Positions 383 through 61,539 of a stretch of 64,000 bases of DNA are shown piece by piece. The translations under genes and the position numbers were made by a program. The first letter of the stretch is position 1, and each line of letters opens with the position of its first letter. The stretch is from Lapillicoccus sp. (lineage in GTDB: Bacteria; Actinomycetota; Actinomycetes; Actinomycetales; Dermatophilaceae): positions 1 to 64,000 of the forward strand of contig NZ_JANXRJ010000103.1 of the NCBI RefSeq assembly GCF_025353065.1, in the 5' to 3' direction. The notes under the pieces are model-generated. The model had not been told where the DNA came from, ran no database searches, and worked only from the letters and a program-made list of their open reading frames with translations.

Positions 383-398
383 CGCTCCCGCGGTGACA

Positions 399-450
399 CC
401 GGATTGGCGTCCAGACGCGTCATTGAGAGCGCGGTTTCACCCCAATCCGG
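399..450. repeat. Palindromic repeat family A, copy A1
   Basis: CCGGATTGGCGT...ACGCGTCATTGAGAG...ACCCCAATCCGG; same core and arms as 60387-60440 and 61486-61539. Confidence 0.75.
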
Positions 451-495
451 GGGTCGGGGTCGGGGATCCAGGTCGGGGCGGCTGGTCAGCGCTGG

Positions 496-22714: not shown

Positions 22715-22738
22715 CCGTGTCCCCCTCACCCGCCCTAG

Positions 22739-22780
22739 CGTCCGCGCGGACGCGACACCGGTGTGCCGTTGGCGCGGACG
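22739..22780. repeat. Palindromic repeat family D, unit 1
   Basis: CGTCCGCGCGGACGCGACACCGGTGTGCCGTTGGCGCGGACG; 39/42 identical to unit 2. Confidence 0.8.
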
Positions 22781-22801
22781 TCAGCGCACCACCCTCCGTT
22801 A

Positions 22802-22843
22802 CGTCCGCGCGAACGCGACACCGGTATGCCGTTCGCGCGGACG
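22802..22843. repeat. Palindromic repeat family D, unit 2
   Basis: CGTCCGCGCGAACGCGACACCGGTATGCCGTTCGCGCGGACG; near-perfect terminal inverted arms. Confidence 0.8.
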
Positions 22844-22859
22844 CAAGCGCGGTGTGCCC

Positions 22860-24167: not shown

Positions 24168-24248
24168 CCTCGTTCCGAACACACGTTCTGTCAAATTTCG
24201 CGTGCTCCGGAGCCCCCGGATTGAGCAGAACGTGTGTTCGGAACGAGG
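24168..24248. repeat. Palindromic repeat family B, copy B1 (23-bp perfect arms) between convergent genes; may act as bidirectional terminator
   Basis: CCTCGTTCCGAACACACGTTCTG ... CAGAACGTGTGTTCGGAACGAGG. Confidence 0.85.
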
Positions 24249-28821: not shown

Positions 28822-28910
28822 CCCTCCTCGTTCCAAACACGCGTTTTACCAAGTTCTCGGGCCCCGGAGGCCACCGGACTTGATAAAACGTGTGTTCGGA
28901 ACGAGGAGGG
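28822..28910. repeat. Palindromic repeat family B, copy B2
   Basis: CCCTCCTCGTTCCAAACACGCGTTTTA ... TAAAACGTGTGTTCGGAACGAGGAGGG (25/27 complementary). Confidence 0.82.
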
Positions 28911-45879: not shown

Positions 45880-46824
45880 ATGTCCAGCCCTGTCGCCGCT
45901 GCCCCCTTCCTCGTCCATGCCGAGGTCGCCCAGGCCCTCGCCGAGGGTCGCGGCGTCGTCGCGCTCGAGAGCACGATCCTCGCTCACGGCCTCCCCCGCG
46001 GCGACAACCGCCGGATCGCCGACGAGATCGAGGACGCGGTCCGCGGCGCGGGATCTGTGCCCGCGACGATCGCCGTGCTCGACGGGGCTGTGCACATCGG
46101 CCTCGACGACGACGACCTCGACCGGATCTGCCACGAGGACGACGTCCTCAAGCTGAGCATCCGCGACGTCGGGGTGGCCGTCGCGCTCAAGCGCACGGGA
46201 GCGACGACGGTCGCCTCGACAGCGGCGCTCGCCCACCGGGCCGGCATCCGGGTCTTCGCCACCGGCGGCCTCGGTGGGGTGCACCGCGGCGCGGCGGAGA
46301 CCTTCGACGTCTCCGCAGATCTCGGGGCCCTCGCCAGGACACCGGTGCTCGTCGTGTGCGCCGGCGTCAAGTCGATCCTCGACGTCGCCGCCACCCTCGA
46401 GATGCTCGAGTCGCTCTCGGTGCCCGTCCTCGGTTACCGCACCGCGCGCTTCCCCGGCTTCTACCTCACCGACTCCGGCCACCGGACTCCGTGGGTGGTC
46501 GACTCCGCGGCACAGGCCGCGGCAGTCGCGCACGCCCGTCGGCTGCTCGGAACCGACTCTGCCGGCGTCGTGCTCGCCAATCCCCTACCCGAGGGGCGGC
46601 AGGTCGACCCCCTGCTGCACGACCGGCTCGTCGCCGAGGGTCTCGCGCTCCTGGCCCGCGAGGGGGTCACCGGCAAGGACGTCACGCCGCGGCTCCTGGA
46701 GTTCTTCCACAGCAGCTCCGGTGGCGAGAGCCTGCGCGCCAACGTCGAGCTGGTGCTGTCCAACGCCGCGCTCGCCGGTGAGGTCGCGGTCGAGCTCGCG
46801 GAGCTGGAGGCGGAGGACCGGTGA
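45880..46824 (+). CDS. psuG: Pseudouridine-5'-phosphate glycosidase
   Basis: VALESTILAHGLPRGDNRRIADEIEDAVR...TVASTAALAHRAGIRVFATGGLGGVHRG...DVTPRLLEFFHSSSGGESLRANV. Confidence 0.93.
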   Translation: MSSPVAAAPFLVHAEVAQALAEGRGVVALESTILAHGLPRGDNRRIADEIEDAVRGAGSVPATIAVLDGAVHIGLDDDDLDRICHEDDVLKLSIRDVGVAVALKRTGATTVASTAALAHRAGIRVFATGGLGGVHRGAAETFDVSADLGALARTPVLVVCAGVKSILDVAATLEMLESLSVPVLGYRTARFPGFYLTDSGHRTPWVVDSAAQAAAVAHARRLLGTDSAGVVLANPLPEGRQVDPLLHDRLVAEGLALLAREGVTGKDVTPRLLEFFHSSSGGESLRANVELVLSNAALAGEVAVELAELEAEDR

Positions 46825-47702
46825 CACCGGTGTCGGCGAGCCGGCCGGTCGTGGTCGTGGGCGACGTCGGCATCGACGTGCTCACCCGCCCGCGTATGCC
46901 GCTCGTGCCCGGCGGCGAGTCGCCCTCCGACATAAGACTGGTGCCGGGGGGCGCCGGTGGCAACACCGCTGCCTGGCTCGCGCGGCACGGCGTCGATGTC
47001 GCTCTCGTCGCGCGGATCGGTGCCGACCAGACGGGTGCGGCAGCACGAGGAGCGTTGGAGCGCTTGGGTGTTCGTTGTATCTTTGCGGTCGATGAGGTGC
47101 TCCCGACCTGCGTGGTCGTCGTCCTGGTCGACGATGCCGGCGAGCGGACGATGCTGTCCGACCGCGGCGCCAACAAGGCGTTCGGCGCGGCCGACGTCGA
47201 CCTCGACGCGGCGGCGCTCGGACCGGCCCACCTGCACCTGAGCGGCTACGTCCTCTTCGACCCGTCGTCGCGCGAAGCCGGGCTCGCCGCCCTCGCCGGG
47301 GCGCGCGAGCGCGGTTGGACGACGTCGGTCGACCCGCAGGCCGCCGAGCTCGTGACCGCGGTCGGCCCCGAGGCCTTTCTCGGTTGGGTCGACGGGGTGG
47401 ATCTGTTGCTGCCGAACGAGATCGAGATCGAGGCGCTGGGCGGGACCGAGGTGGCGTTGGAGCACGTCGGCACGGTCGTCGTCACCTACGGCGCTGCCGG
47501 CGCCCGGTGGTTCACCGCGACCGGCGACGAGCACGTCGACGCCCCGGCCATCACCTGCATCGACTCCACCGGAGCCGGCGACGCCTTCAACGCCGGGCTC
47601 CTCGCGAGCTGGCTCGCCGGCGGCTCCCCCGCTGCCGCCCTGACCGCCGGGGTAGCCGCCGGCAGCACCGTCGCCGCGGACGTGGGCGCCCGGCCGGCCT
47701 GA
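46821..47702 (+). CDS. psuK: PfkB-family carbohydrate kinase, likely pseudouridine kinase
   Basis: VVVGDVGIDVLTRP..., PGGAGGNTAAWLARHGVDVALVARIGAD..., ITCIDSTGAGDAFNAGLLASW; overlaps psuG. Confidence 0.82.
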   Translation: MTPVSASRPVVVVGDVGIDVLTRPRMPLVPGGESPSDIRLVPGGAGGNTAAWLARHGVDVALVARIGADQTGAAARGALERLGVRCIFAVDEVLPTCVVVVLVDDAGERTMLSDRGANKAFGAADVDLDAAALGPAHLHLSGYVLFDPSSREAGLAALAGARERGWTTSVDPQAAELVTAVGPEAFLGWVDGVDLLLPNEIEIEALGGTEVALEHVGTVVVTYGAAGARWFTATGDEHVDAPAITCIDSTGAGDAFNAGLLASWLAGGSPAAALTAGVAAGSTVAADVGARPA

Positions 47703-47728: not shown

Positions 47729-47805
47729 GGGACGCAGGACCGGCACGAGTCCGGAATGTGACCCAGTCGCCGGCGCAAACCAGGCACGCGCCGGTCCTGC
47801 GTCCC
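47729..47805. repeat. Palindromic repeat family C, copy C1 (16-bp perfect arms)
   Basis: GGGACGCAGGACCGGC ... GCCGGTCCTGCGTCCC. Confidence 0.85.
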
Positions 47806-47854
47806 CTGTGGAGAACTTCCGGGCCGTGGGCGCGGCATACGGCAGGCTCGACGG

Positions 47855-48772
47855 ATGGATCCCGTCGACGTGCTGACCCGCCTCGGCGGCGTCGCGACAT
47901 GGCGGCAGCTGCGACAGGTCGTCCACTGGCGGCGGATCGGCGCGGCCCTGGACGCCGGCACGATCGTGCGGACCGCTACCGGCCGATACGTGCTGCCCAC
48001 CGCCGACGAGGCGCGGCGTGCGGCATCTCGCCTCACGGCCGTCGTCAGCCACACGAGCGCGGCTGCGCACTGGTGCTGGCCGGTCAAGGCCACGCCCCCG
48101 CTGCCCCACCTGACGATCCGATACAAGCGGCGTATCAACAGCGAACTCTCGGCCGTCCTCCACTACCGCGACCTCGAGCCGGCCGAGGTGGTCGACGGCT
48201 GGGTGACCTCCCGCGCCCGGACGGTGGTCGACTGCTGTTTGGACCTGCCCTTCGACGAGGCGTTGGCCGTTGTCGACTCGGCGCTGCGAACTGGGTTGCG
48301 GCACAGAGAGATCCGAGCAACCACGGCATCCCTTCCCGACCGCGGTCGACGACGCGTGCTTGCCGTGCTGACCGCGGGTGACGCCCGGGCGGCCAACCCC
48401 TTCGAGTCGGTGCTGCGTTCGATCGCGACCTCGGTGCCCGGTCTCGCCGCACAGCCGCAGTACCGCATCCGGCTGACGAGCGGCGGACGGATCCGGGTCG
48501 ATCTCGGCGACGAGGACCTGCGGATCGTCCTCGAGGCCGACAGCTTCGAGTTCCACGCCGCCCGCAAGGGCTTCGACCGCGATTGCCGCCGCTACGACTG
48601 GCTCGTCCTCGACGACTGGCTGGTGCTCCGATTCACCTGGGAGATGGTGATGTTCGAACCCGGCCTTGTCACCTCCATGATCCGCGACGCCGTCTCGCTC
48701 CAGAAGGCGCAAGCGCAGCGCCGGGGACGCAGGACCGGCACGAGTCTGGTTCGTCCCGCCGTCCTCGTCTGA
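47855..48772 (+). CDS. AbiEi-antitoxin-like N-terminal wHTH domain plus DUF559 (Vsr-like) nuclease-like C-terminal domain
   Basis: MDPVDVLTRLGGVATWRQLRQVVHWRRIGAALDAGTIVRTATGRYVLP...; C-term RIRVDLGDEDLRIVLEADSFEFHAARKGFDRDCRRYDWLVLDDWLVLRFTWE. Confidence 0.78.
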   Translation: MDPVDVLTRLGGVATWRQLRQVVHWRRIGAALDAGTIVRTATGRYVLPTADEARRAASRLTAVVSHTSAAAHWCWPVKATPPLPHLTIRYKRRINSELSAVLHYRDLEPAEVVDGWVTSRARTVVDCCLDLPFDEALAVVDSALRTGLRHREIRATTASLPDRGRRRVLAVLTAGDARAANPFESVLRSIATSVPGLAAQPQYRIRLTSGGRIRVDLGDEDLRIVLEADSFEFHAARKGFDRDCRRYDWLVLDDWLVLRFTWEMVMFEPGLVTSMIRDAVSLQKAQAQRRGRRTGTSLVRPAVLV

Positions 48773-48801
48773 TACCGGACACCTGCCGGTCGACAGTCCC
48801 C
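48723..48801. repeat. Palindromic repeat family C, copy C2, overlapping the 3' end of the DUF559 gene
   Basis: GGGGACGCAGGACCGGCA ... TGCCGGTCGACAGTCCCC (14/18); left part 25/26 identical to C1 as a direct repeat. Confidence 0.8.
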
Positions 48802-60386: not shown

Positions 60387-60440
60387 ACCGGATTGGGGTG
60401 AAAGCGCGTCATCGATGACGCGTTCACACCCCAATCCGGT
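60387..60440. repeat. Palindromic repeat family A, copy A2
   Basis: ACCGGATTGGGGTG ... CACCCCAATCCGGT (14 bp perfect) around the perfect palindrome CGCGTCATCGATGACGCG. Confidence 0.88.
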
Positions 60441-60451
60441 ATGCCGCGGGG

Positions 60452-61408
60452 TCAGCCCGCGCGGCGGGCGGAGAGCTGGTGGTGGGCGCGGCATACCTGC
60501 TCCATGAACGTCTCGGCGATCAGTCGCATCCCGACGAGGTCGATGCGCAGCATCTTCTCGTCCCCGATCACGACCTCGTTCTGCCGCAGGTTGTCGTCCG
60601 TGACCGCCAGCCCCTGGCGGTGCTGGGCGCCGTCGATCTCGACGACGAGCCCGATGTCCTCCCACGCGACATCCAGATAGATCCGGCCCGTCGAGGTGGT
60701 GCGCACGACCTGACGACTCGGCTCTGGGAGACCGTGGGCGCGGCACAGGGCAGCGAAGTCCAACTCCCCGAGCGCTTGGGCGCCGTCCAGGAGGTCGGCG
60801 ATGACCCTGACGATGAACGGCCGGCGACGGAGCAGCGCGACCTCCGCGACCACGTCATCGAGCTGTCGCGGAGTGGCGAGGCGCTGCTGGACCACCATGC
60901 AGAGCACCAGCGCCGCCTGCCGGTCGCTGACCGCCCACGATGCGGCCCGCAGCGCAGCGATCGCCGGCCGGACGCGGGGCACGCCGACCGAGATCACCTC
61001 AGCCGACTGGCGGGCGATGACCGTCCGCTGCCGCACGTCCGCGACGGGAGGTGGTCGGCTGCCATGCGGCACGGAGACCTCCAAGGCGCCGGTCGTGAAC
61101 CCCTTGAGACCCGCCGCGGTCAGTGCCGTCGCGCCGTCGAGAGCAGCGATGCGGTGGCCGACCTCCCACACGGCACGCCACCAGAGGGCCTGCCCCGACA
61201 ACTCCCCCGTGTGCACGGCGATCGTCTGGCGCCCGTGCGCCTTCCATCGCTTCGCACGAAGCTCGGACCGCACCCCGTGCCGGTCGATACCCAGCCCGCG
61301 CAGGACGTCCCGACTGAGGACGCCCTCGTAGATCTTCGCGGCTCGTTCGGCCGTGGCTCGTCGTCCTTCGCCGTTCGTGCGTCTGTCCATCATTCGACGC
61401 TCGCGCAC
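60452..61408 (-). CDS. DUF559-type nuclease-like protein
   Basis: C-term GRIYLDVAWEDIGLVVEIDGAQHRQGLAVTDDNLRQNEVVIGDEKMLRIDLVGMRLIAE; N-terminal LSRDVLRGLGIDRHGVRSELRAKRWKAHGRQTIAVH wHTH-like region. Confidence 0.75.
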   Translation of the reverse strand: MRERRMMDRRTNGEGRRATAERAAKIYEGVLSRDVLRGLGIDRHGVRSELRAKRWKAHGRQTIAVHTGELSGQALWWRAVWEVGHRIAALDGATALTAAGLKGFTTGALEVSVPHGSRPPPVADVRQRTVIARQSAEVISVGVPRVRPAIAALRAASWAVSDRQAALVLCMVVQQRLATPRQLDDVVAEVALLRRRPFIVRVIADLLDGAQALGELDFAALCRAHGLPEPSRQVVRTTSTGRIYLDVAWEDIGLVVEIDGAQHRQGLAVTDDNLRQNEVVIGDEKMLRIDLVGMRLIAETFMEQVCRAHHQLSARRAG

Positions 61409-61485
61409 GACGCCCGTTTGCGCTACCGCGGCTGACCGGGCTGTGGAAACTGGGACGATCGGCCGTGGGGGTGTGGACGACGCCT

Positions 61486-61539
61486 CCCGGATTGGGGTCT
61501 GAACGCGTCATCGACGACCCGGTATCACCTCAATCCGGG
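61486..61539. repeat. Palindromic repeat family A, copy A3
   Basis: CCCGGATTGGGGT ... ACCTCAATCCGGG (12/13) with core AACGCGTCATCGACGAC. Confidence 0.85.

Follow-up and report, generated by a model that had tools for sequence, protein, structure and literature searches.

The closest described counterparts of the locus analysed here are the RAYTs, whose genes lie between two imperfect palindromes of the cognate type, one of them often at or over the stop codon, and which are kept as a single gene copy with no IS-like multiplication, while the extragenic palindromes follow their cognate gene (PMC2817692, PMC3733652, PMC8266576). TnpA-REP cleaves the single-stranded form of its cognate REP (PMC8266576). 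Two further groups are related at the protein level: the homing endonuclease I-Bth0305I forms a dimer on its target, which measures nearly 60 bp (PMC3943268), and AbiEi and Rv2827c autoregulate by binding inverted repeats of 23 bp in their own promoters (PMC7319586). The DUF559 protein VsrA of Caulobacter causes an SOS response in cells without a cytosine methyltransferase (PMC12907096), and therefore DUF559 proteins are able to damage DNA in vivo; these are the sole functional data on any DUF559 protein met in our literature search. No prior description of DUF559 proteins with palindromes, of an actinobacterial RAYT or of a REP with a winged-helix protein was found in the open-access literature, and the system described below appears to be undescribed in the part searched. 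With a probability of roughly 0.6, we interpret the DUF559-type gene and its two flanking palindromes as the resident copy of a mobile, REP-like system that a Vsr/EDxHD (DUF559) nuclease drives.

The window, that is, the whole stretch of 64,000 nucleotides of Lapillicoccus sp. that was analysed, contains the features listed in Table 1. The neighbours of the nuclease gene, named by reading, are presumably a PfkB-type kinase and a secreted cutinase-like ORF. The preliminary description had placed the gene between two copies of a palindrome, C1 with perfect 16-bp arms and C2 overlapping the gene, and all of this was found again at the same places. C1 starts 26 nt past the PfkB stop codon and its arms (GGGACGCAGGACCGGC/GCCGGTCCTGCGTCCC) pair perfectly over 16 bp each; the left arm is common to both copies, the left parts of which form the reported direct repeat (25/26 identical, 995 bp spacing). 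The covariance match of C2 extends from 48723 to 48801. The final residues and the stop codon (48770-48772) of the gene are encoded within C2, by the left arm together with part of the loop. The folding z-score is -5.2 for C1 and -1.0 for C2 alone. At several DUF559 loci, for example at 47805-47820 of the window, a CCTGTGGA-type motif stands straight after the upstream palindrome.

Table 1. Positions of the nuclease genes, their palindromes and the conserved neighbour in the window.
Feature	Position	Strand	Remarks
PfkB-type sugar kinase	46821..47702	+	conserved left neighbour of the window nuclease gene
C1, upstream family C palindrome	47729..47805	+	REP-like, 77-nt core; 81 bits, covariance model
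Nuclease gene, predicted wHTH + AbiEi-like + Vsr/EDxHD (DUF559-type)	47855..48772	+	305 aa
C2, downstream family C palindrome	48724..48800	+	over the gene's last codons and stop; 74 bits
Second, distant DUF559-type gene	60452..61408	-	318 aa; start codon uncertain
Family A palindrome	60387..60440	.	downstream of the second gene
Family A palindrome	61485..61538	.	upstream of the second gene
Solo family A palindrome	398..453	.	
Solo family B palindrome	24168..24248	.	cognate gene on contig C75 (L138)
Solo family B palindrome	28822..28910	.	cognate gene on contig C75 (L138)

The family matches of the window protein are to DUF559/MTES_1575 and AbiEi only, with Pfam DUF559 scores at the border of the cut-off (19.9 and 21.6 bits versus 20.6). 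Its AlphaFold2 model, based on 71 homologues, has a pLDDT of 94 and a pTM of 0.89. In comparisons with VIA-align, residues 178-285 resemble the DUF559 structure 3hrl (Z 13.2), I-Bth0305I (Z 12.8) and Vsr (Z 10.5), residues 51-176 the AbiEi of S. agalactiae (6y8q, Z 12.4), and residues 1-48 a winged helix, the last a weak match (Z 5.5). Conservation among the 71 homologues is complete for E184, E227, H234, D243, R246 and R259 and almost complete for D216; E184, D216, H234 and D243 are the EDxHD-type residues. In the model, both the fold and the conserved E-D-H-D residues of the EDxHD/Vsr nuclease class are present, and the protein is predicted to join a winged helix of the AbiEi type to a nuclease of this class. 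Assignment to the RAYTs was considered and rejected: the HUH motif and the catalytic tyrosine are absent and the whole-chain model consists of AbiEi and Vsr/EDxHD folds, and because there is no HUH/Tyr domain the window system lies outside the RAYTs. By analogy, a dimer of the window protein on both arms of the 79-nt palindrome is plausible, because I-Bth0305I dimerises and AbiEi binds inverted repeats.

Family C is a REP-like element of 79 nt, which the covariance model locates at 25 distinct places in its own genome; together with the z-score of C1, this number means that C1 and C2 are not a product of chance. Elsewhere in the 5.1-Mb genome there are more exact copies of the 16-nt arm, and several arms that are nearly exact stand in pairs spaced exactly 61 bp, which is the spacing in C1. 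Aligned copies read GGGAC, five variable nucleotides, ACCGGC, CACGA, GTCCGGTATG and a loop, followed by the mirror image. Across 79 genomes of the bacterial family from 53 genera, matches at E<=1e-6 are confined to the own genome, with none in the other 78, and the best scores in two congeneric genomes are 30-38 bits compared with 93 bits in the own genome. The stem shows no more compensatory changes than shuffled controls do, a hairpin test that is weakened by the high conservation of the C sequences. A tandem pair of C palindromes with a BIME-like spacing of 94 bp lies at C23:2992-3164 (L158/L160) of the own genome. Around 21 C elements neither a target-site duplication of at least 4 nt (0/21; shuffled mean 2.0 at 4 nt) nor a target motif common to the insertion sites was found, and none of the aligned copies has a GTAG/GTGG head at its edges. 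In the missing duplication the elements differ from a classical IS or MITE.

The location of these copies bears on the possibility that the palindromes are operators, through which the AbiEi-like protein would regulate its own gene and a regulon, with some other role for the nuclease domain. AbiEi and Rv2827c do act on inverted repeats of their own promoters (PMC7319586), and the upstream palindromes sit approximately 50-130 nt ahead of the start codon. However, nearly all of the 21 solo C elements start no more than about 75 nt downstream of a stop codon, and their neighbours are co-directional in 13 cases, convergent in seven and divergent in only one, while the second copy of a bracketing pair follows or overlaps the stop codon. 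In addition, the elements are 54-90 nt long across the families and are lineage-specific insertions, and cassettes swap at the palindrome edges. The operator model is marked down because the copies lie at 3' ends, and we regard it as unlikely.

A REP-like system agrees with the other palindrome families of the genome, in which each DUF559-type paralogue has a different palindrome pair: TCGGACGGGACGA at the paralogue on contig C180, CAGACATACAGA on C321 and GACGACCGTTGGT at a gene split between C65 and C188, while contig C75 carries two bracketed DUF559-type genes. The split gene (L033/L035) runs across two contig ends, has an in-frame TAG and keeps both palindromes; it is probably a decayed copy. 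Within the window, the second DUF559-type gene, overlooked by the earlier reader, is bracketed by a pair of family A, a sequence unrelated to family C; its product has a weak similarity to the window nuclease (E 0.016, residues 193-260) and no Pfam match at E<=0.01. Since the pair bracketing the C75 gene at L138 matches family B, a cognate gene that the earlier reader likewise overlooked, each of the three families of the window (A, B and C) has its cognate gene in this genome. At 22730-22852 of the window, a GTCCGCGCG(G/A)ACGCGACACCGGT(G/A)TGCCGT palindrome is present in two copies side by side, with 52-nt arms that are 83% complementary.

In three congeneric genomes, 18 of 21 DUF559-type genes lie between two copies of a palindrome of their own, a count that includes one gene scored by inspection (L032), and the three unbracketed ones are fragments or partial matches. 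Sampled from Intrasporangiaceae-type and Nocardioidaceae genomes, 41 of 79 DUF559 genes (52%) reach an upstream/downstream repeat score of at least 18, a score that 3 of 147 neighbouring genes (2%; Mann-Whitney p 1e-18) also attain, as do 1.4% of flanks when mispaired. Of 27 Pfam DUF559 genes sampled across the class, 12 are bracketed, compared with 1.6% of mispaired flanks; about half of the wider DUF559 sample has no detectable pair. Copies number approximately 6-25 per family. A genome-wide scatter of palindromes with no enrichment at DUF559 genes had been named in the preliminary description as an argument against its own reading; the scatter is found, the lack of enrichment is not, as the pairs are far commoner at DUF559 genes than at neighbouring genes.

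Between genomes, the GGCTGTCAA palindrome occurs with exact arms at 7 places in genome G001 and at none in two congeners, family A at 5 places in its own genome and likewise at none in two congeners, and, among 20 genomes, the GGACCGCCACGA family in three, each of which has that type of gene. Judged from these occurrences, the presence of a palindrome follows that of its cognate nuclease gene across genomes. MITEs are small palindromic elements mobilised in trans by unrelated transposases, and the palindromes could likewise be independent MITE/REP-like elements moved by another enzyme, with DUF559 genes as frequent passengers or targets. This mode of movement is familiar, and the action of the nuclease on the palindromes is itself only proposed, but there is one palindrome family per gene, its presence tracks the gene, and many unlike palindrome sequences occur always with the same protein class, which makes independent elements improbable.

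For the REP-like system, presence and absence can be compared at orthologous sites. Genes with a C palindrome at the 3' end have orthologues in G001 and G002 that are followed by the same gene and lack a C palindrome, some of the C-less gaps leaving less than 40 nt between the two genes. In G002, approximately 30 nt past the stop of the orthologue of the L150 gene (L181), a palindrome ACCGACTTGTTGCGG..CCGCAACAAGTGG is present where the own genome has C. Behind another such orthologue, in G001 (L192), there is a solo copy of the palindrome of G001's own L125 gene, and the next gene is not conserved. Close syntenic pairs, scanned for indels that would mark solo insertions, yielded no clear case.

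Whole cassettes differ as well. Terracoccus sp. 273MFTsu3.1 (L038) and Terrabacter sp. Ter38 (L045) have flanking DNA that is 95-98% identical, while the block between PfkB and the right-hand gene is swapped, with nucleases of 52% identity and different palindromes; the similarity ends approximately 15-40 nt outside the palindromes. PfkB is the left neighbour common to the window gene and a syntenic group, and its 3' side is a cassette insertion site in relatives. The right-hand gene at this site in relatives, named by reading, we take to be methylmalonyl-CoA mutase-like; the window genome has a different right-hand neighbour. A survey of the site revealed GGGTCAACCAACAGG-type cassettes in L242, L244, L246 (without a clear left palindrome) and L248, CGGACCGCCACGA-type cassettes in L243, L245, L251 and L253, another type in L249, and an empty site in L247 (genome G127), where the genes stand 28 nt apart. 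The DUF559 gene of Terrabacter sp. Root85 (L060/L244) has a one-base frameshift at about 3650, the close relative L038 being intact. In L248, the start of the left arm and the end of the right arm lie within approximately 3 nt of the empty-site sequence. The G127 site may represent a precise loss or a site that was never invaded; whichever applies, the aligned sites mark the palindromes as the edges of the insertion. A clean empty site at an orthologous locus, as the preliminary description had envisaged, is present in G127, and instead of the same gene conserved without palindromes, which it had weighed against itself, the orthologous positions have a diverged gene with other palindromes. Its proposal of a REP/RAYT-like organisation with an unrelated nuclease fold stands up in that the palindromes track the gene, the cassettes are palindrome-edged and have an empty site, and the nuclease is of the Vsr/EDxHD and not the HUH type.

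Alleles with and without a cassette at the PfkB site could also indicate a homing-endonuclease-like selfish gene, whose nuclease would cut cassette-free alleles so that recombination copies the cassette in, the palindromes being remnants or recognition sites, and the nuclease domain is indeed near the EDxHD enzyme I-Bth0305I (Z 12.8) with its long dimeric target (PMC3943268); dispersed solo palindromes at unrelated sites with no common target, and intact palindromes instead of half-sites beside the gene, leave this a low probability. A Vsr-like restriction, repair or defence nuclease with palindromes as terminators or protective marks, for which the SOS response to VsrA without cytosine methyltransferase (PMC12907096), the AbiEi defence-model matches and the hairpins in 3' regions could be cited, is very improbable, as terminators are not expected to form gene-specific families that track a nuclease across species.

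Genome comparison establishes the association, specificity, dispersal and clean presence or absence of palindromes and nuclease genes. From this pattern we infer that the DUF559 protein binds and cleaves the palindromes, its catalysis offering what seems the best explanation. In the REP-like system we propose, the arms of the palindrome would be recognised by the winged-helix/AbiEi part, acting as a dimer on the duplex or on an extruded hairpin, the nuclease would nick or cut at the palindrome edge, and repair or strand transfer would then copy the small element to new sites. The gene-bearing cassette would occasionally be moved or excised, with the nuclease gene kept mostly single-copy at a fixed locus, like RAYTs. 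The gene looks single-copy per family and often sits at a conserved locus, and whole-cassette mobility would therefore be rare.

We consider it somewhat better than an even chance that such loci represent widespread, undescribed actinobacterial mobile DNA, in which Vsr/EDxHD (DUF559) nucleases serve as dedicated transposase-like enzymes for their own palindromes, as an independently evolved, non-homologous counterpart of REP/RAYT. Should the nuclease indeed move the palindromes, this would be a second, independent origin of the REP/RAYT lifestyle of a resident nuclease with small dependants, and a transposition-like system run by Vsr/EDxHD enzymes, a class not known for such activity. DUF559 proteins are common and mostly without an assigned function, and many actinobacterial ones are now paired with a palindrome family, which could explain the palindromic repeats of 3' regions in actinobacteria and provides many natural cognate pairs for studies of the co-evolution of nucleases and long palindromes. 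Such nucleases may also stand behind other palindromic repeats for which no enzyme is known, e.g. the CGTC REPs.

Among known systems, IS200/IS605 and MITEs with TIRs resemble the present one in their subterminal palindromes or small non-autonomous copies of their ends, whereas here a HUH/Y1 or DDE transposase and a target duplication are absent and the gene is not multicopy. AbiEi antitoxins of type IV TA systems and Rv2827c have the N-terminal winged helix and the following domain in common with the predicted window protein, which differs in the nuclease fusion and in palindromes dispersed at gene 3' ends; AbiE has a DUF1814 (AbiEii) partner, and none was noticed beside the window gene among neighbours known by reading only. 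The catalytic fold and the E-D-H-D residues are shared with Vsr and with EDxHD homing endonucleases such as I-Bth0305I, in contrast to which the system described here has dispersed cognate palindromes, no intron or intein and no tie to a methyltransferase. REP/RAYT systems, REPtrons and REPINs have the same anatomy, a gene flanked by two cognate palindromes, and here as there dispersed extragenic copies co-occur with the cognate gene. REPs usually exceed 100 per genome, and the present families are far below this, with fewer copies and several unrelated families per genome. They differ further in their palindromes of 54-90 nt, in the absence of a GTAG head in family C and in their actinobacterial hosts, and, instead of the HUH tyrosine transposase of REP/RAYT, the enzyme here is, according to the model, a wHTH-AbiEi protein with a Vsr/EDxHD nuclease.
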